Shown here piece by piece: positions 7,858 through 30,916 of a stretch of 64,000 bases of DNA. The notes below the pieces were generated by a model that saw only the letters and a program-made list of their open reading frames with translations, did no database searches and was not told the origin of the DNA. The number at the start of each line of letters is the position of its first letter. The stretch's first letter is position 1. The stretch comes from an uncultured Eubacteriales bacterium (GTDB taxonomy: Bacteria > Bacillota > Clostridia > Peptostreptococcales > Anaerovoracaceae): positions 56,240-120,239 of the forward strand of contig CACWSO010000006.1 of assembly GCA_902763505.1 (NCBI GenBank). Reading direction: 5' to 3'. A program made the translations under genes and the position numbers.

Positions 7858-10422
7858 CTATTTCCACCCGTGGAGCATAGCCAGTGTCGTTTCGTAATCT
7901 GCCTTGCTCTGGTAGGCTTCCATGATTTTTGCGCTGATGGAAGTATCTCCAATCACAACTGCTCCTGCGAATACATCATGCAGGAAGTACAGTTTGATGT
8001 AGGTCAGCGTCCTTGGGTCGTCCACTTCAAGGGTCTTGTAGAATTCGCCTTCCTTCTTGCCGGTGTCTCCCATGGCGAAGAGGTCGATGCCGAATCCAGT
8101 GAAGCTGACTGCAGGTGTAATGCCTTCGTATACGAGGTCATCACCAACTGCATTGGCTCCGGCTACACGGCCCATCTCGACGGCCTGATTCCAGATGCCG
8201 ATGGATACGCCGCCCACGGCTGCCACATCTCCTGCCGCATAGATACCAGGCAGTGATGTTTCCATCTTGTCATTGACATTGATGAAGCGCTCTGCAGCGG
8301 CACCTGCATTCTGCAATACCTGTACATTTGCCTTTGTGCCTGTGGACAGGACAACCAGCTGCGCCGGCAGTTTCTCTGTTTCCAGCTGCACGCCGTCGGC
8401 TTCGATGCCGTTGATCTTAGCGCCGGTCAGAACGCGTATACCCTTGGCTTCCGCCGCTGCTTTCAGAACCTGTGAGCCAGTCTGATCCAGCTGACGTCCC
8501 ATGAGAGCAGGCGCCATTTCAACGACTGTGACGTTCCGTCCTGTCTTGATGAACTCAGAAGCTGCTTCCAGTCCCAGTACGCCGCCGCCGATCATAACGA
8601 TGTCCTTTACCTGCGGCAGCAGATTCTGGATATCGATGATATCTGTCACCTTGCGGATTACCTTCACGAATGGCTGATCTGCGCCCGGAATCGGCGGAAC
8701 AAAGCTCTCTGCGCCTGTCGCATAGACCAGTCTGTCGAAGCTTCTGCCGCTGCCGTCGGACAGCGTCAGCGTCTTCGCATTGTTGTCAATCGCCGTTACG
8801 GCAGTGCCGAAGGTGACCTTGATGTTGTTGCTGACATACCAATCCGGTGCTTTTGTAATAAATCCCAGAACGTCCGGTTTTGCCAGGATGTTCTTGGTCA
8901 GCATCGGTCTGTTGTAGCACGGCAGATCTTCGTTTGTGATGATTTCGATAGAAGCTGCATGATTTCTCTCACGTGCTGCTTCTGCCGCTGTAAGGGCAGC
9001 TACGCCGCCGCCTACGATGATCACGTTCAAAGGCTCCGTGCTGGTAAATCCGGTATTCGCAACACTGACAGGCACAAACTGCTCCGGTCCCACTCCGCAG
9101 ATCGGACAAGCGGAAGGCGGTACATCGCCATAAACGACTTCCCCGCAGACCAGGCACTTCCATGCCTGTGCGCCGCCTGTTGCAGGCGCTTCCTTCTTGC
9201 CGGATTTCTGCGCATCCCAGTGAGCCTTTGCCTTTAAGCCAAATCCATAACCGAAATCAAAGGCCTGCTGCATCTCGATTGGGGACGGTTTGAACTGAAC
9301 GCGGAAGCCTTCTTTATAGACATCCATATTCAGCTGATGCAGACGCTCAATCAGATGAGGCACGCCCTCTCCGGACCATCCGTATGCGCCAAATGCTGAC
9401 GCCGGTTTGCCGCCGTGCGTACCTGCAAAAATCGACGTCGTCAGATCCCAGATCGGTTTCAGGGCCTCTCCGAGGACAGTCGGCGTTCCGAAGAGCAGTC
9501 CGTCTGCCCAGTACATTTCACCAACAACTTCTCCTGCATCTGCATAGACCATGTCGTAGGCCTTGATTTCGATGTCAGGACAAGCCTTGCGGATACCATC
9601 TGAAATGACATCTGCCAAAGTCTTTGTATAACCATATGCCGCGACATACGGCATGACAACGACCGGATGCTGGTTTGGATTGACTTCTGTAGACCAGTCT
9701 CTGTAAACCTCGATCCAGTGCGGAATATCCTGATCAAGGACCGGACCGTGTCCCGGACAAATCATCGTGATGTTCTTGTCCTTGATCTTCTCAAGGGCTT
9801 CCAGAACATACGGCTTGAACGGTCCGATAATATTGTCGTAATAGTACTTCATCATCCGCATGGAGTTGTCCAGATCCGTTACGGTGGACTGGAGGATTCC
9901 CGGATGACTGTAGTGATTTCCGAAGGAATCGCATGGTACCAGGACGCCGTCCTCACGGATATAGGTCCACATCGTATCCGGCCAGTGCAGGTTCGGTACG
10001 ATCATGAACTCCAGCGTCTTATCGCCCAAAGGCAGAACATCGCCATCGCTGATTGGAATCGAACTGAACTCACGATTGCTGACTGCCTTCATGAAGCTCA
10101 GCGCAGTTGGTGTTCCCACCAGTTTGATTCCAGGATTCAGGTCGATGATCCGTTCAGCTGTGCCGGCGTGATCCGGCTCGGTGTGATTGACGATCAGATA
10201 ATCGATGTCCTCGATATTGATCAGCGTCTTCAACTGAGCGATATACTCATCTGCCCACTTTTCTTTGGCTGTTTCAAAAAGGGCAGTTTTCTCGCTGCCC
10301 TTCAGAAGATACGAATTATAGGTCGTACCAAAGTCAGTGTGCATAATGATATCAAAAACTTCCAGATCCGGGTCCAGGATTCCTGCCCAGTAGAAGTTCT
10401 TTCTTAATTCCATTGTGCTCAT
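7858..10422 (-). CDS. Flavodiiron protein fused to rubredoxin and NAD(P)H:rubredoxin reductase
   Basis: 854 residues in four modules. Residues 1-250 form the metallo-beta-lactamase-like diiron domain with the HxExDH motif (His80, Glu82, Asp84, His85 in VNHTEPDHAG). Residues 255-400 form an FMN flavodoxin domain (YGYTKTLADVI). About 424-460 is a rubredoxin (CLVCGEVVYG, then CPICG). Residues 470-854 form an FAD/NAD(P) reductase with NVIIVGGGVAALTAAEA and VMIGGGVLGLEAA. Such single-chain enzymes pass electrons from NAD(P)H to the diiron site and reduce O2 to water or NO to N2O without an external partner. The AGGAGAG ribosome site fixes the start. It is 29 bases after a flavoprotein gene and lies downstream of the choline operon, where oxygen removal would protect CutC. 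Confidence 0.9.
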   Translation of the reverse strand: MSTMELRKNFYWAGILDPDLEVFDIIMHTDFGTTYNSYLLKGSEKTALFETAKEKWADEYIAQLKTLINIEDIDYLIVNHTEPDHAGTAERIIDLNPGIKLVGTPTALSFMKAVSNREFSSIPISDGDVLPLGDKTLEFMIVPNLHWPDTMWTYIREDGVLVPCDSFGNHYSHPGILQSTVTDLDNSMRMMKYYYDNIIGPFKPYVLEALEKIKDKNITMICPGHGPVLDQDIPHWIEVYRDWSTEVNPNQHPVVVMPYVAAYGYTKTLADVISDGIRKACPDIEIKAYDMVYADAGEVVGEMYWADGLLFGTPTVLGEALKPIWDLTTSIFAGTHGGKPASAFGAYGWSGEGVPHLIERLHQLNMDVYKEGFRVQFKPSPIEMQQAFDFGYGFGLKAKAHWDAQKSGKKEAPATGGAQAWKCLVCGEVVYGDVPPSACPICGVGPEQFVPVSVANTGFTSTEPLNVIIVGGGVAALTAAEAARERNHAASIEIITNEDLPCYNRPMLTKNILAKPDVLGFITKAPDWYVSNNIKVTFGTAVTAIDNNAKTLTLSDGSGRSFDRLVYATGAESFVPPIPGADQPFVKVIRKVTDIIDIQNLLPQVKDIVMIGGGVLGLEAASEFIKTGRNVTVVEMAPALMGRQLDQTGSQVLKAAAEAKGIRVLTGAKINGIEADGVQLETEKLPAQLVVLSTGTKANVQVLQNAGAAAERFINVNDKMETSLPGIYAAGDVAAVGGVSIGIWNQAVEMGRVAGANAVGDDLVYEGITPAVSFTGFGIDLFAMGDTGKKEGEFYKTLEVDDPRTLTYIKLYFLHDVFAGAVVIGDTSISAKIMEAYQSKADYETTLAMLHGWK

Positions 10423-12148: not shown

Positions 12149-13882
12149 CTATTCTCCTCTCAAAGCCTTTGTCATTGATTCGATCATTGCATTGAGCTGC
12201 TGTGTATCAATTGGCTTTGTCAGATCCGGTCCAACCGGCGGCACATTGACTGGTGCTGCCTGCATTGTTGCACCCTGATTCTGAATGGCCTGCGGTGACG
12301 GAGCACTCAGTACATCGTTTACTGTGAACGGTGTTCCGCATCCGCCGCAGCTTGGGCTGTAGGAAACAAATCCTGAATTGTTTGCTACAGGAGCCGGTGC
12401 AGGAGTTGCCGGAGTCAGCGTTGGAACTGCTGCCGGAGCTGCCGGTGCCGGTGCAGCTGGTGTGCAGGCGCCGATTCTCTCCAGTTCAGCTGTATGTGTC
12501 CATGTAGGATCCTGCTGAATCAGTGTTGTAACGTCCTTGATACCATAAGCGACTCTCTTGATGTTTACCAGGTGCATCGGAGTAACGTTCTCTGATACTG
12601 AGCTGCCGCCCCAGGTTCCGCATCCGAGTGTGAATGACGGAGCGAGACCAGTGCTGGCACCAACGCCACCCATTGTGCTTCCTGTGTTGACAACGATTCT
12701 CGAAGCAGGTTTTGCCGAGAATTCCAGAACCATGTTTCTATCCTCTGTATGGATACTCATGGTGTGTCCGATACCATTCTGCAGCAGATCCTTTGACAGA
12801 TCACAGGCTTCTCTCCAGTCTTTTACGACATAGAATGCCAGAACACTTGTCAGCTTCTCATAGGAAAGCGGATATCCATCGCCTACGCCTCCCTGCGGTC
12901 CGAGAAGGACTTTCGTTCCTTCCGGAATGCTGATACCTGCTGCATTTGCAATGACCTGTGGGCTGCGGCCTACGAACTTAGCGTTCATTGCGTGACCACC
13001 GTTCTTGAACAGAAGCTTGCAGACTTTGTCTGTTTCTTCTTCTGACATGAAGTAGCCGCCCTGACGCTTGAATTCAGCGATGACCGCGTCCTTATTGCAC
13101 TCTTCACATACGACTGACTGTTCTGATGCACAGATCGTGCCGTAGTCGAAGCTCTTGCTTGTGATAATGTTTGTAACAGCTTTCTGAACATTTGCTGTTC
13201 TTTCAATGTATGCTGGTGAGTTTCCTGCACCAACACCCAGTGCCGGTTTGCCGGCGCTGTATGCTGCCTTAACCATTCCCGGACCACCGGTTGCGATGAT
13301 GACCTTGACATTCTTGTGATGCATCAGTTCATCTGTCGCCTGCATGGAAGGCATGCTGCAGCATGCGATCGTATTTGCCGGTGCTCCTGCCTGTACGGCA
13401 GCTTCTGCCATCAGCTGTGCTGCTCTCAGCGTGCACTTCTTAGCTGATGGATGTGGTGAGAAGATGATTGCGTTTCTTGCTTTGACTGCAATCATCGCCT
13501 TGAAAATCGCTGTGGATGTTGGGTTTGTGGATGGAACGATACCCATAACCAAACCTACAGGCTCAGCAATCTTAATGATTCCAGTTGCCGGGTCTTCTTC
13601 GAGGATCCCGGATGTCTTCATGTTCTTAATCGACTGATAGAGTATTGTAGAAGCCAGATGGTTCTTGTATGTCTTGTCGGCAACTTTACCGAAGCCGGTT
13701 TCTTCGACTGCCATCTGTGCCAGTTCTACTGCATGCTCTTCAGCGACGCGGACCATGTTGACCAGAATCTTATCAATCTGTTCCTCAGTATATGTGGCGA
13801 TCTGTTCAGTTGCGATCTGTCCCAGACGCGCCATGTCTCTGACTTCCTGAACGGAACGAAGATCATAATCCATGTTGTCCAT
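12149..13882 (-). CDS. CoA-acylating acetaldehyde dehydrogenase of the microcompartment (CutF/EutE type)
   Basis: 577 residues. The aldehyde dehydrogenase core (1-460) has the catalytic Cys251 in [11 protein letters not shown] and the cofactor segments [14 protein letters not shown] and [14 protein letters not shown]. It oxidises the acetaldehyde released by CutC to acetyl-CoA with NAD. The C-terminal 110 residues are an Ala/Pro linker, a CGGCG patch, and a terminal helix [17 protein letters not shown] that looks like an encapsulation peptide. The AAGGGGGA ribosome site supports the start. A second homologue in the same operon lacks the catalytic Cys, so this copy is probably the working enzyme. 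Confidence 0.92.
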
Positions 13883-13930: not shown

Positions 13931-14272
13931 TTATTTTTTCAAGAACGCTTTGAACTCATCGATGAGTACCTTCTTGTTGGCATTCCTGATTTCTCTGCCG
14001 GCAATTCCGAATTCACCATTGAATTCTCTGGCCAGTGATCTCAAGTCAACGACTTTGACCTTCTGGAGCGCTTCCAGCGCTGCATCGACGCCGTACTTTT
14101 TGACGGCTGCTTCCAGAGCTTTACGGTCCTTTGGTGGTTCAGGCAGCTCTTCTGCTGCTTTCTGTGCAGGCTTCTCAGGTGCCTTCTCCGGCGCCTTTTC
14201 CGGTACCTTCTCTGGTGTCTTCTCAGGTGCCTTTACTGGTGCCTTCTCAGGTGCCTTTTCCGGTGTCTTCAC
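13931..14272 (-). pseudogene. Lys/Pro-repeat linker plus C-terminal helical domain, out of frame with the preceding shell gene
   Basis: The frame carries about eight KAPEK/KTPEK-type repeats, then a 60-residue helical domain (VDLRSLAREFNGEFGIAG, then NKKVLIDEFKAFLKK). The only start is a GTG at 14272 without a ribosome site, but the frame stays open back to 14317, where it meets the acidic end of the BMC-H gene. Reading LGDTPDPEPTPTEPAV from 14317 continues the acidic tail naturally. Loss of one T in a TTT run (TTA to TAG) would split an originally single 228-residue protein. I treat it as the detached 3' part of the shell gene. It may instead be reached by frameshifting or reflect a sequencing error. 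Confidence 0.55.
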
Positions 14273-14313
14273 CGCTGGTTCAGTTGGTGTAGGTTCCGGA
14301 TCAGGCGTGTCGC

Positions 14314-14616
14314 CTAATCATCCTCCTCTTCATCGTCGTCCTTGATGTGCTTAACGATGAGACCATCCAGAGTTTCATGTGGACGAGGGATAACATGTGT
14401 GGAGACGATTTCTCCGCCCATTCTCATAACGGCTGCTGCTGCTGCATCAACGGATGCCTTGCAAGCTGCAACGTCACCTGCGATGGTGATCGTTACCAGA
14501 CCGCCTTTAACGAATGTTCTCTCAACGAGAGTAACCTCAGCTGCCTTCAGCATAGCGTCGGCGCTTTCGATTGCAGGTACGAGACCTCTAGTTTCAATAA
14601 ATCCAAGTGCTTTCAT
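14314..14616 (-). CDS. BMC-H microcompartment shell protein (possibly truncated)
   Basis: 100 residues with one BMC domain: ALGFIETRGLVPAIESADAM, VKGGLVTITIAGDVAACKASV and THVIPRPH. After the domain comes an unusual acidic tail (HIKDDDEEEDD) that ends at a TAG overlapping an open -1 frame encoding a Pro/Lys-rich linker and helical domain. Shell proteins with such extensions occur in other microcompartment loci, so this may be the N-terminal half of a longer protein. Its AAGGAG ribosome site is good. Confidence 0.9.
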   Translation of the reverse strand: MKALGFIETRGLVPAIESADAMLKAAEVTLVERTFVKGGLVTITIAGDVAACKASVDAAAAAVMRMGGEIVSTHVIPRPHETLDGLIVKHIKDDDEEEDD

Positions 14617-20247: not shown

Positions 20248-21195
20248 CTAGTGCCTGATTACGGATACCGGCAGATCATACTTCTTGATCCACCCTTCGA
20301 TACGGTCCAAATCTTCCTGTTCCAGCTTCACCTCATCGGTGATCGCATATTCCATATCCAACTGGCCGTACTTGTTTACGCCCATCTTGTGATATGGCAA
20401 CAGGTCGATTCCCTTGAAATTTTTGAGATCCTTATACGGAAGCAAAAATTCCATGGTGTTTTCGATTTCTTCCTGACTGTCGTTGACGCCTTTTAACATC
20501 GGCATACGGATCTGGACATTGTGCCTGCCCTCAAGCAGGGTCGCCAAATTGTCAAGAATAATCTCGTTGCGCACTCCGGTCAGTTCACTGTGACGATCTG
20601 AATCGAAGTGCTTGATATCAAACAGGAAGAGATCCACAAACTCGGCCAGTTTCAGAATCGTTTCCTTCTTACAGTAGCCGCAGGTTTCAATTGCGGTATT
20701 GATTCCTTCCTGTTTTGCTGCCTGCAGCAGTGAAAGTGCAGCCTCTGGCTGGGCAGTGCATTCACCGCCGCCCAGAGTAACGCCGCCACCTGAAACATCA
20801 TAGAATCCACGGTCTTCCTTAACGATATCCATCAGTTCGGATATGGTCTTCTGTTCTCCGCAGATTTCCAAGGCATTGTAGAGACAAGCGTCTTCACAGG
20901 CTCTGCATCCCACACAGTCGATGCTGCGATCCACGAAGTGTCCGTCGGGACCCATCTGATGGATTCCGACAGGACAAACCGGAACGCATGCTCCACAGGA
21001 GACGCAAACGTCACGTTTGAACATCACCTGTGTCTTACGCTGCAAGCCTTCTGGGTTAGCGCACCACTTGCATCTCAATGGACAACCCTTAAAGAATACC
21101 AGTGTCCTGACACCCGGGCCGTCATGCATATTATATTTTTGAATATTGAATATGACCGCTTTACGTTCGATCAAATCTCCATTCTTGCTGCTCAT
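20248..21195 (-). CDS. cutD: Choline TMA-lyase activating enzyme (radical SAM)
   Basis: About 315 residues. The radical SAM cluster is bound by Cys38, Cys42 and Cys45 in KGCPLRCKWCANPEG. Two additional ferredoxin clusters follow (CVSCGACVPVCP and CVGCRACEDAC), as in glycyl radical activases with an insert. It uses S-adenosylmethionine to place the glycyl radical on CutC. The ATG at 21193-21195 follows a GGGAAGG site; an upstream TTG would overlap it. The gene is 27 bases downstream of cutC. Confidence 0.94.
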   Translation of the reverse strand: MSSKNGDLIERKAVIFNIQKYNMHDGPGVRTLVFFKGCPLRCKWCANPEGLQRKTQVMFKRDVCVSCGACVPVCPVGIHQMGPDGHFVDRSIDCVGCRACEDACLYNALEICGEQKTISELMDIVKEDRGFYDVSGGGVTLGGGECTAQPEAALSLLQAAKQEGINTAIETCGYCKKETILKLAEFVDLFLFDIKHFDSDRHSELTGVRNEIILDNLATLLEGRHNVQIRMPMLKGVNDSQEEIENTMEFLLPYKDLKNFKGIDLLPYHKMGVNKYGQLDMEYAITDEVKLEQEDLDRIEGWIKKYDLPVSVIRH

Positions 21196-21222
21196 GTTAC
21201 GCCTTCCCTGCAATCAATCTAG

Positions 21223-23811
21223 TTAAAACTTAGTCAGCATTGTACGGCTGATGATTTCATCCTGTACATCCTTGCACAGTTCTGTGAAGAATGCGGAGTA
21301 TCCGGCAACACGTACAACCAGATCTCTGTAGCTGTCCGGATCCTTCTGTGCAGCCAGCATGTCTTCGTTGTTGACATAGTTGAACTGCATTTCGCCGTTA
21401 CCGAACATACTTGCTGTTCTCAGCAGTGTGATGATACCCTGCTCGCCTTCCGGCGTATCCAGAATACCAGGCATCAGCTTGAAGTTATGTACAAGACCGA
21501 TGTTCATATCATCGTTCGCCATCTTGGATACGGACTTGATGATCGCTGTAGGGCCCTTGTAGTCAGCACCCTGTGTCGGTGAAATACCATCGGACAGCGG
21601 AGTCCAAGCCTTACGTCCGTTAGCAGATGCTCCAGTCAGCTGACCAAACGGTGTGTTGTTCGAGATGGACAGTGTACCGTGGGACAGTCTGGAGTACAGT
21701 GTCTTGTACTTCTTGTGCTCATGCTCTGTAAAGTCGATGATGTCGTTGCAGAAGAAGTCTGCATAGTCATCGTCGTTACCATACTTCGGAGCTGCCAGGC
21801 AGTCTTTCTGAACCTGCTCATATCCGACGAAGTCAGCCTTCAGTGCTTCGTTGAGCTGATCCAGCGTGTACTTCTTGTCGTCGAATACCAGCTTCTTGAT
21901 TGCTGCCATAGAGTCAGCGTAAGTAGCCAAACCTGACCATACAACACCAGGTCCGAAGTTGTACATCGCACCGCCTGCTTCAACGCCGCGGCCATTTTCC
22001 ATACAACCTTCAAACATGATGGACATGAGTGGCTTCGGTGCCAGTTCCTTGTGGACTCTCTGTGAGATGACCGTCATAACGGATGTCCACTTCGTCATGT
22101 AGGAAATGGTAGCCTTAACAGCTGCGTCGAATTCTTCGAATGTCTTGTAGTTGCAGAGGTCTCCCAGATCCGGTGTAACCTGCTTGCCGTACCAGAGTGG
22201 AACACCGTGGTTCAGTGTCAGCTCGATGGCGATCGGCCACTGTGTATATGAAGTGGATGTCCACTGATACAGTCTGCCGGCCTTCTGCGGTTCTACGCAT
22301 CCCATCAGGCAGTAGTCTCTGGCGTCTTCTACGTCGATACCCTTCGCGAGCATCATCTTGATATGTGTATCGTCGAAGTGGCATGCTGGGAATCCCATTC
22401 CTGCTCTTACTACATCAACGATCTTTTCCATGTATTTCTGCGGTGACTTGTTGTGGATACGGCATGCCAGTGATGGCTGATAGATCTTAGTGAATCTTAC
22501 TGCATCCATCAGCAGGTATGTCAGGTCGTTTGTTGCATCTTCACCCTTACGAGTAACGCCGCCTACGCACATGTTTACGAATGGCTGATATCCTGCGAAG
22601 AACTTTGATGCGCCTTCGCTGGTTACCCACATCATCTCGGACATCTTGATCAGCATGCAGCTTGCCAGCTCGAATGCCTGATACTGTGTCATTCTGCCGG
22701 ATTCGATATCCGCCTTATAGAACGGATACATGTACTGGTCAACACGGCCGATGGACATACCAGTCTGGTTTTCTTCTACCGGAAGCAGTGATTCGATCGT
22801 CCATACGGACTGGATTGCTTCCCAGAAGTTTTCAGGCTTTCTGGCCGGTACCTTCAGGTTGACTTCTGAGATTCTCATCAGTTCCTGCTTACGTACAGGG
22901 TCATTGCACTGTGCTGCCAGCTGAGCAGCATATTCTGACATTCTTCTAGCGTAGATCATGACACCTTCTGTCGTATCGATAACGCCTTTGTAGAAGTAAA
23001 TCTTGTCAATATCTTCAGGGTTCGCATAATCCAGCTCAGCCAGATGTGCTTTTGCTTCATCCTGAATATCCTGCATGCCCTTCTTCATAAGGATGACGTC
23101 ATATCCAGGGTTGGAGTCGCCGCCGCCGTTCTCTGCGTGGTAGGAACAGTCTGATACATAAGATTCACCTGACAGTTCCCAGCCGCCGCACTCTCTGTAC
23201 TGGTCATAGCAGTGCTCTGCGACTGACTTGCCTCTCCAGAACGGAATCAGCTCTTCTCTGATGTATTTCTTGTCTTCTTCTGAAATGAAGAATGGATCCT
23301 GTGGTCTGGTGCCGATAGTCTCCAGCTCATCTTCCATCCACTCCCACGCGATATCCGGGGAGAATGCTCCTACACGAGGACCGCCAGTCGGGTTACCTAC
23401 GATCAGTTCGTTGTCCTGAATGATCAAAGGTGCTGTTTCGCAGCAACGTCTGAACGCTTTCGCTCTCAGGATGATCTTCGGCATACCCGGATGTTCCTTC
23501 GTAACCTCTGTAACCGCTCTCGCACGATATGTGGAGATGGACGGAACCTGCTTACGGTAGTTGTCCTTCAGTGCCAGAATACGAGGAGTAGGTCCATCCG
23601 GCTGCCAGCCTGGATCTGTCGGAGCAACGGATGCTGCCGGAGCAGCAGGCTGTGCTGCTGGTGCTGGTGCTGCCGCTGCCGGAGCAGCTGCTTCGCGCTG
23701 TGCGATATTGCTTGTCACACCTTCAAACATTCTCTTGAGGGCATCTCTTTCCTCAGGAGACATGTCTTTCGTTGCGGCTGCCAGCTTTTCTGAAAATTCA
23801 CGAATATCCAA
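21223..23811 (-). CDS. cutC: Choline trimethylamine-lyase, type I glycyl radical enzyme
   Basis: 862 residues. It cleaves choline into trimethylamine and acetaldehyde. The diagnostic residues are all present: Asp232 in GGDSNPGYD, Cys505 and Glu507 in MGCVEPQ, Thr in TSTSYTQWP and the radical Gly837 in RVAGYSAFF. The Cys-to-Gly spacing (332) equals that of the Desulfovibrio alaskensis enzyme (C489, G821). Residues 1-36 form an amphipathic targeting helix ([20 protein letters not shown]), followed by an Ala/Pro linker, so it is encapsulated. Its length marks it as the short type I form. cutD follows directly. Confidence 0.97.
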
Positions 23812-23845: not shown

Positions 23846-25354
23846 TCATTTATCATTCAATCCGTCGATCTTATTGATGATATCTCTCAACACCTGCTGC
23901 ACGCTTTTGACATCGTCTGCATAGTGCAGCTGTTCAATTGTTTTCGACGGGCTGTCTGTCAATCCTGTCCGTCCGAACATCTGGGCGTCTACTGTCTGCA
24001 TATCCCTGATGCCGAAACCGACTTTTCTCACATAGATCAGATTCCCCGGTGATACATTATCTGATGTAATACCATATCCTGCTGTACCGCTGCCCAATGT
24101 CATGGCCGGTGTCAGGTTTGTAGTAGCACCCATGCTGCCGAATGTTGCCGGTGTGTTCACCAGAACTCTTCCGACAGGCTTCTTGAGTGCGAAATCACGT
24201 ACTACATTTTCCGCCTTGGAATGGATCACCAGTGTATGCCCTTGCTTCAAAGTCAAAAGCAATTCGATGCATTTCTCACAGGCTGTCATCCAGTTCTCTT
24301 CGATGAAGTACGCCATAACCGGACCGAGTTTCACATGCGTGTACGGATTTCTCGTCGATGCATATTTCTCTTCAGAGATCAACAGTACGGTTCCTTCCGG
24401 TACGCTGAATCCTGCCTTCTGAGCCAGCTTCTCGGCCGGGATGCCGATCAATGCCTCATTGGCGCTGCCATCAGAATGGAATATGATGGAGGCCAGCTTC
24501 TTTGATTCCTCACTGCTCATGAACCATGTATGGTTACGACGGAATTCTTCTTTGACTTCATCCGCGATGGGAGCATCTACTACAACTGTCTGCTCCGCAG
24601 CAGGAAGCACTCCATTATCAAATGTCTTGCTTGCAATGATATCCCGAACCGCTTGTTGGATGTCAGCCGTTCTTTCGATAAAGACAGGACCATTTCCTGC
24701 TCCGCCGTAAATCAGCGGTTTGTTGGAGTCCTGCGCCGCCTTGAGCATCCCCGGAACGCCTGTATTCAGAATCATGGCTGTGTGCTCATGATTCATGAGT
24801 TCGATCGTTCCGCTGGCTGTTACTGTGTGCATGTAGCACACGGCTCCTTCGGGCATTCCCGCCGCTTCACCTGCTGCGATCATGATGTCCAGTGCTCTGC
24901 CGATGGTCTCCTTCGCTCTCGGATGAGGAGAGAACACAATGGCGTTGCCAGACTTGATCGCGATCAGTGTCTTGTAGATCGTTGTCGATACAGGACTTGT
25001 TGCCGGACAGAGTGCTGCGATCACACCCATCGGCACACCGATATCGACGATCCCCTTCTGCGGATCATCACTGATCACACCTACGTAGCGTTTGCCCCGC
25101 AGCTGTTCTCTAAGATACGTGCAGACAAAATGGTTCTTGGCATATTTGTCCTTCCAGTTACCGAAATCCGTCTCGTCAGCAGACAGGACCGCTAGTTCCT
25201 CGATATGAGGCTGTACTGCATCTGCCATTGCTTCGACAAATGTATCCAGCTGCTCCTGAGGCAAAAGCGCCAGCCATTGCTGAGCATGGTATGCATTCTC
25301 TGCCAGAATACGCGCTTCCTGGATGGAGAGAAGATCGTTATCTATGATATTCAT
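23846..25354 (-). CDS. Aldehyde dehydrogenase homologue lacking the catalytic cysteine
   Basis: 502 residues, collinear with the 577-residue dehydrogenase of the same operon. Cofactor segments are kept (ALCPATSPVSTTIYKTLIA, GGAGNGPVFIERTADI), but the nucleophile position reads NGVLPAAEQTVV: Pro251 (codon 24602-24604) replaces Cys251 of the partner. The raw sequence gives CCT there without ambiguity. It should not form the thioester, so it is probably a pseudoenzyme, perhaps a structural or regulatory partner of the active copy. The C-terminal helix (VQQVLRDIINKIDGL) resembles a shell-targeting peptide. It lies between the first shell genes and cutC. Confidence 0.9.
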   Translation of the reverse strand: MNIIDNDLLSIQEARILAENAYHAQQWLALLPQEQLDTFVEAMADAVQPHIEELAVLSADETDFGNWKDKYAKNHFVCTYLREQLRGKRYVGVISDDPQKGIVDIGVPMGVIAALCPATSPVSTTIYKTLIAIKSGNAIVFSPHPRAKETIGRALDIMIAAGEAAGMPEGAVCYMHTVTASGTIELMNHEHTAMILNTGVPGMLKAAQDSNKPLIYGGAGNGPVFIERTADIQQAVRDIIASKTFDNGVLPAAEQTVVVDAPIADEVKEEFRRNHTWFMSSEESKKLASIIFHSDGSANEALIGIPAEKLAQKAGFSVPEGTVLLISEEKYASTRNPYTHVKLGPVMAYFIEENWMTACEKCIELLLTLKQGHTLVIHSKAENVVRDFALKKPVGRVLVNTPATFGSMGATTNLTPAMTLGSGTAGYGITSDNVSPGNLIYVRKVGFGIRDMQTVDAQMFGRTGLTDSPSKTIEQLHYADDVKSVQQVLRDIINKIDGLNDK

Positions 25355-25384: not shown

Positions 25385-25699
25385 TTAATATGGTAATAAC
25401 TTATCTAAAGTGTAACGCTCGATGATCTTTTCGATGTCCGGATGCGGTGTAGCAATGACAACAGAACTGTAGACTTCTGTTCCCATTTCTGCGACTGCCT
25501 TAACGCCCGCTTCTACTGCGGACTTGCATGCGCCGACGTCACCTCTTACCAGTACTGAAATATATCCGGATGCAGTGTTCTCATATCCGATCAGCTCAAC
25601 TTCTGCTGCCTTTACCATAGCGTCTGCTGCCTGACAGATGAAGACCAGTCCGAATGTTTCGATCATTCCTAACGCTCTTCCGCTTCTTGCGCTTGCCAT
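25385..25699 (-). CDS. BMC-H microcompartment shell protein
   Basis: 104 residues with one BMC domain ([47 protein letters not shown]). The usual pore residues are altered (ENTASGY where other copies have GGGLV). I prefer the ATG at 25697-25699, eight bases from AAAGGA; an ATG two codons upstream is too close. Second gene of the operon. Confidence 0.93.
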   Translation of the reverse strand: MASARSGRALGMIETFGLVFICQAADAMVKAAEVELIGYENTASGYISVLVRGDVGACKSAVEAGVKAVAEMGTEVYSSVVIATPHPDIEKIIERYTLDKLLPY

Positions 25700-25716
25700 C
25701 TTCATTCATTCCTTTC

Positions 25717-26019
25717 TTAATAGATATCCACGTCGTGACAGGATACAATATCGCCAACTTCCGGAATTGGCCTAGGGATAACGTTCTGTGCTGTCAGTGT
25801 TCCGATTGCTGCTGCCGCTTTTGCACCTGCTTCGACAGAAGCCTTACAAGCTGCAACATCGCCGGTTACGATGATTGTAACGAGCGTAGATCCGATGTTC
25901 TCGTAGGATACGAGTTCAACCTCTGCTGCCTTGAGCATCTTGTCGCATGCTTCTACCGCCGGAACCATTCCGATGGTCTCGATGAATCCAACAGCCTCTT
26001 TACCATAAAATCTCGGCAT
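25717..26019 (-). CDS. BMC-H microcompartment shell protein (first gene of the choline operon)
   Basis: 100 residues with one BMC domain: AVGFIETIGMVPAVEACDKM, STLVTIIVTGDVAACKASVEAG and NVIPRPIPEV. AAAGGAG precedes the ATG. It is the first gene after the MerR-type promoter at 26104-26134, which gives it the highest expected expression. Only 12 bases separate it from the next shell gene. Confidence 0.94.
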   Translation of the reverse strand: MPRFYGKEAVGFIETIGMVPAVEACDKMLKAAEVELVSYENIGSTLVTIIVTGDVAACKASVEAGAKAAAAIGTLTAQNVIPRPIPEVGDIVSCHDVDIY

Positions 26020-29818: not shown

Positions 29819-30916
29819 ATGGAAAATGTACAAAACGCTTCTGCATTAGCAGCAGCTAAAACTGCCAGAGATAAAGCCTTCTGGAAAAAGGGCCTGTTCA
29901 TCGCCATTTTTTCAGGCTTCCTCTACGGTGGTTACACATCCTTCATGACTGAAGGTATGATGCACGGCGTATGGAACGACATCTACGCAGATGTTCCGAC
30001 CGGCGTTGCGGCTGGCGTTTCCGCTTTCTTCATCGTCTACACAGTCAGCGCCATCGGCGCAGCCTGCGTTGACCTTGGATCCGCAATCTGGTCACTGTTC
30101 TACGGCGGCTGCATCGGCAGACTGGGCGACTTCAAGAGAACGCTCTCAACAAAGCCTGGTAAGATTCTGATCATCGCTGCAATCATCGGTGGTCCGCTGG
30201 CTTCAACAGCTTATGTAATTGGTCTGCAGATGGCTGGTTCCATCATCGTACCGATCGCGGCACTGAACGCTGCAATCGGCGCAATCATCGGCCACTTCGC
30301 CTTCAAACAGAAGACGACAAAGGGCATGGTTGTTGGTATCATTATCTGCTTCGCAGCAGCAACATTGATTGGTTCGTCTTCCATGACGGATCTGAACTTC
30401 TCCGGCGGCGCAGCTCTGGGATGTCTGGCGGCATTCATCGCAGCAATCGGCTGGGGTGTTGAAGGTGCTGTTGGCGGCTACGCATGCTGCATGGTAGATA
30501 CAGAAATCGCTATCATCATCCGTCAGTGCACATCCGGACTGGTAAATGCTATCATCCTCGTTTCTATCCTGTCCATCATGGGTGGCGACGGTATCGCTTC
30601 CGGATGGCACGTACTCGGTGCTTGTCTGACTGACATGCCTTCCTACTGGATGCTGTTCGTTGCAGGTGTATTCTCATCCTGGTCCTTCAAGTTCTGGTAC
30701 AAGGGTGCTGCAATGTGCGGTGCTGCTCTCGGTATGGGCTGCAACGGTGCGTATGCATTCTGGGGTCCGTTCTGGTGCATGATCGTCTGCGGATTTATCT
30801 TCGGACACGATGGATTCGTTCTTCCGGCTGTTGGCTGGATCGGCGCACTCGTCATGGTTGCTGGTATCCTGATTCTGGCAATTTCCCAGAACAAGGCCAC
30901 AATGCAGCAGGAATAG
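29819..30916 (+). CDS. DMT-superfamily-like membrane transporter of the choline locus
   Basis: 365 residues with about ten membrane segments. A short polar N-terminus precedes TM1 (GLFIAIFSGFLYGGYTSF); internal repeats around GGPLASTAYVIGLQMAG and AFIAAIGWGVEGAVGGY match the EamA/DMT fold of ten helices. AAGAGGTG precedes the ATG. It has its own MerR-type promoter, so it is controlled with the locus. It is the best candidate for choline uptake or trimethylamine export in the window; which is not decidable from sequence. An 87-residue gene follows 13 bases later. Confidence 0.75.
   Translation: MENVQNASALAAAKTARDKAFWKKGLFIAIFSGFLYGGYTSFMTEGMMHGVWNDIYADVPTGVAAGVSAFFIVYTVSAIGAACVDLGSAIWSLFYGGCIGRLGDFKRTLSTKPGKILIIAAIIGGPLASTAYVIGLQMAGSIIVPIAALNAAIGAIIGHFAFKQKTTKGMVVGIIICFAAATLIGSSSMTDLNFSGGAALGCLAAFIAAIGWGVEGAVGGYACCMVDTEIAIIIRQCTSGLVNAIILVSILSIMGGDGIASGWHVLGACLTDMPSYWMLFVAGVFSSWSFKFWYKGAAMCGAALGMGCNGAYAFWGPFWCMIVCGFIFGHDGFVLPAVGWIGALVMVAGILILAISQNKATMQQE

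Follow-up and report, generated by a model that had tools for sequence, protein, structure and literature searches.

In every GRM1 locus with two aldehyde dehydrogenases (AldDHs), one of the two carries Ser or Pro at the position of the catalytic Cys, and inactivity of this copy together with a role as scaffold or regulator was suggested at the same time (Axen, 2014; PMC4207490). A later study marks it in GRM1A and GRM1B as a "putatively inactive second copy" (Sutter, 2021; PMC8217296). That GRM1 loci hold a Cys-less second AldDH is already known from these two studies (PMC4207490, PMC8217296). In the open-licence literature, no experiment on the function of this GRM1 protein or on its binding to CutC was found. 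In a related system, the GRM2 compartment of Klebsiella pneumoniae, CutF was reported to enlarge assemblies of full-length, but not of N-terminally truncated, CutC and was proposed to be a cross-linker (Kalnins; PMC6971018). In that report, the AldDHs of this family are described as tetramers, the GRM2 CutC uses an N-terminal domain of ~330 aa, and encapsulation in the presence of CutF is given as not certain (PMC6971018).

The DNA analysed here (the window) is a 64,000-nucleotide stretch from an uncultured Eubacteriales bacterium, with a choline utilization (cut) locus on its minus strand. It encodes the choline trimethylamine-lyase CutC (P0003, 862 aa; 21223..23811, minus), which scored 1602.6 bits with TIGR04394 (cut-off 1050), and the CutC-activating enzyme CutD (20248..21213, minus), which scored 544.8 bits with TIGR04395 (cut-off 360). 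Just upstream of the Cys-less AldDH lie two genes (25385-25705 and 25717-26019; 25385..26019, minus) that we take to be BMC-H shell-type genes, and homologues occupy the same place in relatives. CutC and CutD above their cut-offs, together with shell-type ORFs in the locus and in its relatives, assign the locus to GRM1 (type I cut), and it follows the rule of two AldDHs with one lacking the catalytic Cys (PMC4207490).

Several other ORFs surround the cut genes. A BMC-H type ORF (14314-14616, in the region 13931-14616, minus) ends after an acidic run and is followed in another frame by an ORF that is rich in Pro, Glu and Lys and contains a short helical domain, while both parts of this region form one ORF of 227-259 aa in L117, L155 and L201. 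The same BMC-H end is common to L112-L116 and therefore reflects a split gene or frameshift and not a read error. Downstream of the cut genes, an 854-aa protein (7858-10422, minus), apparently a flavodiiron-rubredoxin-oxidoreductase fusion, might protect the oxygen-sensitive lyase. A 365-aa membrane-transporter-like protein (29819-30916, plus) possibly carries choline or an amine; its counterparts next to the cut loci L142 and L165 share 43% and 49% identity with it.

The Cys-less AldDH (P0001, 502 aa; 23846..25354, minus) was identified from its ORF and translation, Pfam membership, fold and trees. It belongs to the ALDH superfamily (PF00171, 76.6 bits against a gathering cut-off of 23), and its score with the EutE-type acetylating acetaldehyde dehydrogenase model TIGR02518 (520 bits) lies under the cut-off of 620.1. 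An AlphaFold monomer model of the protein is predicted to share the fold of the Listeria enzyme 3k9d, with a TM-score of 0.84 relative to the model and of 0.93 relative to 3k9d. The codon CCT at 24602..24604 (minus; 24604-24602 as read) encodes Pro251 in the context SKTFDNGVLPAAEQ. The second AldDH (P0002, 577 aa; 12149..13882, minus) scores 751 bits with TIGR02518 (cut-off 620.1) and is the likely catalyst. Both AldDH ORFs lie on the minus strand, a detail missing from the original prediction, and the original prediction that the two proteins are collinear and that the shorter has Pro in place of the catalytic Cys was borne out by their alignment (40% identity and 62% positives over 461 aligned aa), in which Pro251 faces the Cys of the 577-aa paralogue. 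Alignment with the acetaldehyde dehydrogenases 3k9d and 5j78 likewise places the Cys of GTICASEQ opposite Pro251. A read error at 24602-24604 is ruled out by nine near relatives from separate records (L032-L040, 68-99% identity), all of which have Pro within GVLPAAEQ or GLLPAAEQ. The position directly before cutC is also correct, as 34 nt separate the AldDH stop from the listed cutC TTG start. The proposed C-terminal targeting-like helix is plausible: the model predicts a helix at residues 480-498 (23861..23917, minus) after a low-confidence linker, and this segment is a possible encapsulation peptide. In L013/L089, the AldDH ends at a TAG without the C-terminal helix and cutC then follows; an AldDH-cutC fusion was considered for these two and rejected, as the reading frame shows that the TAG terminates the AldDH.

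To describe the active site, conservation was counted in 66 non-redundant Cys-less copies and 41 Cys copies; these sets were split by the presence of the Cys, so that Cys in 41/41 is a definition and a tree of 111 rows is the test. Residue 251 of the 66 Cys-less copies is Ser in 35, Pro in 23, Ala in 4, Thr in 3 and Met in 1. By parsimony on the 111-row tree, the six letters at this site require 14 changes. The idea that Ser251 has taken over as nucleophile was discarded, as Pro, Ala, Thr and Met occupy the same site. Among the hallmarks of the EutE type, the window copy lacks the catalytic Cys (Pro251) and the Asn of TNP (Ser120; 24995..24997, minus) and retains the His of GHT (His373). The Asn of TNP, which we take to be the oxyanion residue, is present in 41/41 Cys copies, and the 66 Cys-less copies have Ser (62), Asn (3) or Gly (1) there. 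Further replacements fall in residues 200-217 (24704..24757, minus), in which the window copy has Val200 (TGG to TGV) and Tyr216-Gly217 (GVG to YGG); Gly200 is changed to Val in 65/66 Cys-less copies, Gly216 to Tyr in 56/66 and Val217 to Gly in 64/66, and Gly200 and Gly216 presumably belong to the nucleotide-turn and active-site segments. His373 is retained in 65/66. Glu341 is kept in 62/66 Cys-less and 41/41 Cys copies and is Val in the window copy (24332..24334, minus); the corresponding Glu419 of a homologue was described as contacting the nicotinamide ribose (PMC5311937). For Cphy1178, a homologous microcompartment AldDH, activity of the C269A mutant was reported as "completely abolished" with an essentially unchanged structure (PMC4762007). 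As judged from these replacements, the window protein is a catalytically dead AldDH that has lost several active-site residues besides the Cys. A separate feature of the Cys-less clade is Lys361 (within 24155-24298, minus), which is invariant (66/66) and found in 0/41 Cys AldDHs; it is flanked by Cys359 (66/66) and Cys362 (65/66, and also 26/41 Cys AldDHs).

The Cys-less copy is under purifying selection: of nine comparisons with relatives, the six with dS <2 gave dN/dS values of 0.024-0.050 (simple Nei-Gojobori counts), L039 gave 0.072 at saturated dS, and L040 and L055 were undefined. Comparable counts were 0.029-0.048 for the active copy (five pairs with dS <2, with 0.067 and 0.077 in two saturated pairs) and 0.014-0.134 for cutC (nine pairs). 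In the Cys-less clade, 133/455 positions are conserved at ≥95%, compared with 114 in the Cys AldDHs. In a Clostridium ljungdahlii study, growth on choline induced the gene at the place of the Cys-less copy by log2 7.2, the lyase by 7.9 and the active AldDH by 5.6 (PMC12016505). Gene order suggests that this induced gene is the Cys-less AldDH of L042.

In the 111-row tree, a single branch (SH-aLRT 100) separates all 69 Cys-less rows from all 42 Cys rows; a quick method was used, and the alignment included site 251 itself. An AdhE-rooted tree, also obtained by a quick method and with two long Cys-less branches flagged, united 27/27 Cys-less rows in one clade (SH-aLRT 100). The Cys-less clade has a single origin. 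It joins (SH-aLRT 100) four Cys AldDHs, three from GRM2-type loci and one from Enterococcus, and the sister relationship to the GRM2-type CutF makes the Cys-less copy the counterpart of GRM2 CutF. Active GRM1 AldDHs occur in two separate places of the tree, one with Bacillota and Fusobacteriota rows and the other with Desulfobacterota rows. On the evidence of the trees, the Cys-less copy did not arise by a recent duplication of the active one. The topology suggests that the active GRM1 copy was added or exchanged.

The neighbourhood of cutC was examined in a CutC-only survey of partly overlapping samples of 391, 193, 250, 197 and 247 genomes under strict E-value limits. TIGR04394 covers only residues 75-862 of the window CutC, and residues 1-74 (23590..23811, minus) form an N-terminal extension that we propose as a docking region. 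CutCs were classed by the start of their alignment to the window CutC, at residue 1-2 or at residue 49 or later, and all 52 distinct CutC places, which are related by descent, were examined. A Cys-less AldDH ORF lies directly upstream on the same strand in 41/41 places with the short extension and next to 0/9 CutCs without a recognisable extension, and both long GRM2-type CutCs (2/2) have a Cys AldDH ~1.4 kb upstream. Among the nine unextended CutCs, L189 is near three shell-type genes, L181 has a distant Cys AldDH relative 1.7 kb upstream, and the two in L164 and L184 lie on contigs that also carry a complete cut locus. No shell-type gene was detected by similarity in the stretch examined around the unextended CutC relatives in L162, L163, L181, L183, L190 and L192. 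In a set of 80 loci picked by AldDH similarity, 77 have cutC, every one aligning from the extension onward; 73 have a Cys-less AldDH and four a Cys AldDH (L108 of Enterococcus and L109-L111 of GRM2 type). In the Enterococcus locus L108, which lies outside the survey, the CutC is short and extended and the AldDH has the Cys. The extension therefore does not require a dead copy, and it accompanies the CutF lineage, dead or active.

Two segments of the Cys-less AldDH are candidate contact surfaces, namely the N-terminal helix at residues 1-30 (25265..25354, minus; helix 3-28 in the predicted model), which is conserved even in the most divergent copies, and residues 353-400 (24155..24298, minus), in which 31 sites are conserved at ≥90% in Cys-less copies versus 15 in Cys AldDHs. 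The cofactor and oxyanion core contains 46 sites conserved at ≥90% in the Cys-less clade. In the divergent L142, L186 and L187, the core retains 12, 23 and 24 of these 46 sites, whereas the two segments together retain 35, 36 and 35 of 45 sites (11/14 in residues 1-30 of each, and 24, 25 and 24 of 31 in residues 353-400). The contrast, strong for L142, is moderate for L186 and L187, whose sequences nearly duplicate each other. All three have lost conserved cofactor and oxyanion loops and have retained the gene and its position; L142 was absent from the profile-search matches and came to light when the neighbourhood of its CutC was read. L103 shows the opposite trend, with 16/31 sites kept in residues 353-400.

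Our preferred reading, to which we give about an even chance, is by analogy with the GRM2 system: the window protein would be a dead AldDH of the CutF lineage that acts in the GRM1 choline microcompartment as a structural partner of CutC and organises the enzymatic core. An oligomer of the AldDH fold would bind CutC, most likely at the N-terminal extension of the lyase, and the C-terminal helix of the dead AldDH would perhaps contact the shell, so that both contacts gather the enzymatic core. Acetaldehyde would be oxidised by the second, Cys-bearing AldDH, which would be exchangeable, and the organising role would have been kept from the CutF lineage while catalysis was dropped. That the protein oligomerises, binds CutC and organises the core is suggested by the CutF-CutC cross-linking reported in GRM2. 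Since the GRM1 CutC is without the ~330-aa GRM2 domain, its contact cannot be identical to that in GRM2. The adjacency to extended CutC in 41/41 places, the CutF kinship, the persistence of residues 1-30 and 353-400 beyond the core and the co-induction on choline count for CutC as the partner; the correlations in Bacillota-type loci (below), a cofactor core kept beyond the need of a pure scaffold, L103, L108 and the kinship of the surveyed places count against it. L108 leaves the odds of this reading as they were, since an extended CutC is predicted alongside any AldDH of the CutF lineage, whether dead or active. A wider reading, offered tentatively and at a little under even chances, is that assembly has been split from catalysis: the dead AldDH would be a dedicated CutC-binding core organiser in which catalysis was lost once and which has since remained the constant partner of extended CutC, and the catalytic AldDH would have become replaceable from lineage to lineage and even from one compartment to another.

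The original prediction of a pseudoenzyme kept for a structural, cofactor-holding or shell-targeting role, perhaps in a mixed oligomer, holds in so far as catalytic residues are lost and selection maintains the copy; among the classes of explanation, a structural role has the best support. The mixed oligomer is weaker and not favoured. Tetramers with the active AldDH, whereby the Cys-less subunit tunes, stabilises or targets that enzyme, would fit the tetrameric state described for the family (PMC6971018) and the co-occurrence of the two copies: a search of 19 genomes (20 loci were named, with L048 left out) matched the active AldDH strongly in 17/17 genomes with the Cys-less copy, each with the Cys, and a second set gave a match in 13/13. 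Against this, the active copies belong to two distinct lineages with 40% identity to the window copy, and the small cut locus of genome G303 (L145, L146), with cutD, cutC, Cys-less AldDH and shell-type genes, has no active AldDH in the 19.5 kb examined; at E ≤ 1e-85, the only other AldDH matches in G303 are the active AldDH, which belongs to a different compartment locus ~166 kb along the contig, and an AdhE. Distance correlations point both ways, as the partial r of the Cys-less copy over all 36 loci is 0.49 with CutC and 0.02 with the active AldDH, and 0.60 and 0.11 in the 20 Desulfobacterota-type loci, but in the 16 Bacillota-type loci the best correlation is that between the two AldDHs (0.73, versus 0.12 with CutC). 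As the direction differs between the two types of loci, distance correlation was dropped as proof of the partner. Altogether, mixed tetramers appear rather unlikely.

We regard as slightly less probable still that the protein serves the pathway as a reservoir or regulator by holding NAD, CoA or acetaldehyde. Uptake of soaked CoA by the Cys-to-Ala homologue Cphy1178 C269A was reported (PMC4762007), and binding is conceivable for most members because they keep the cofactor core, including His373 (65/66) and Glu341 (62/66); however, Gly200 and Gly216 are replaced by Val and Tyr, the window copy has Val341, and L142 and L186/L187 keep gene and position without the conserved loops. Residual enzymatic function, through another nucleophile or in another reaction, is very improbable. 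Cys116 near the site is found in 59/66 Cys-less and 0/41 Cys copies and His373 is kept, but Cys116 is Val, Ser or Pro in 7/66, Asn120 is replaced in 63/66 and the drift at residue 251 leaves no nucleophile there. The loss of a catalytic residue by itself would also be expected if the copy were decaying or the sequence misread; both are practically excluded by the low dN/dS (0.024-0.050), the Pro shared by nine near relatives, the 133/455 positions conserved at ≥95% and an ORF in the same place in 41/41 surveyed loci.

A CutC-organising role of the dead AldDH of GRM1 loci, if true, would account for part of the assembly of trimethylamine-producing compartments in gut and sediment bacteria and would provide a scaffold part for engineered compartments. 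Annotation may in that case credit the wrong AldDH. In D. alaskensis, Dde_3283, numbered next to CutC (Dde_3282), is listed among acetaldehyde-converting genes in one study (PMC4215793), and gene order suggests that it is the Cys-less copy. The kinship to the GRM2-type CutF and the link to the CutC extension make a puzzle noted since 2014 directly testable.

Compared with known systems, the window copy is in the same locus type and has its replacement at the same site as the Cys-less GRM1 AldDHs of Axen and Sutter, with no difference in the copy itself; what is added here, relative to the open-licence literature searched, is Ala, Thr and Met at residue 251, further active-site losses, the single origin, the GRM2-type CutF kinship and the tie to extended CutC. 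The fold is the same as in the acetylating acetaldehyde dehydrogenases 3k9d (Listeria, 44% identity) and 5j78 (Geobacillus, 40%), but the window copy has other residues at the catalytic Cys, at the oxyanion Asn and in the TGG and GVG segments. GRM2 CutF resembles it as the sister lineage, in lying upstream of cutC and in its C-terminal helix. In contrast, CutF has the Cys (in the four loci examined), lies ~1.4 kb from cutC and has a partner CutC of ~1150 aa with a long N-terminal domain, whereas the window AldDH has Pro251 and lies directly before the gene for a CutC of 862 aa.
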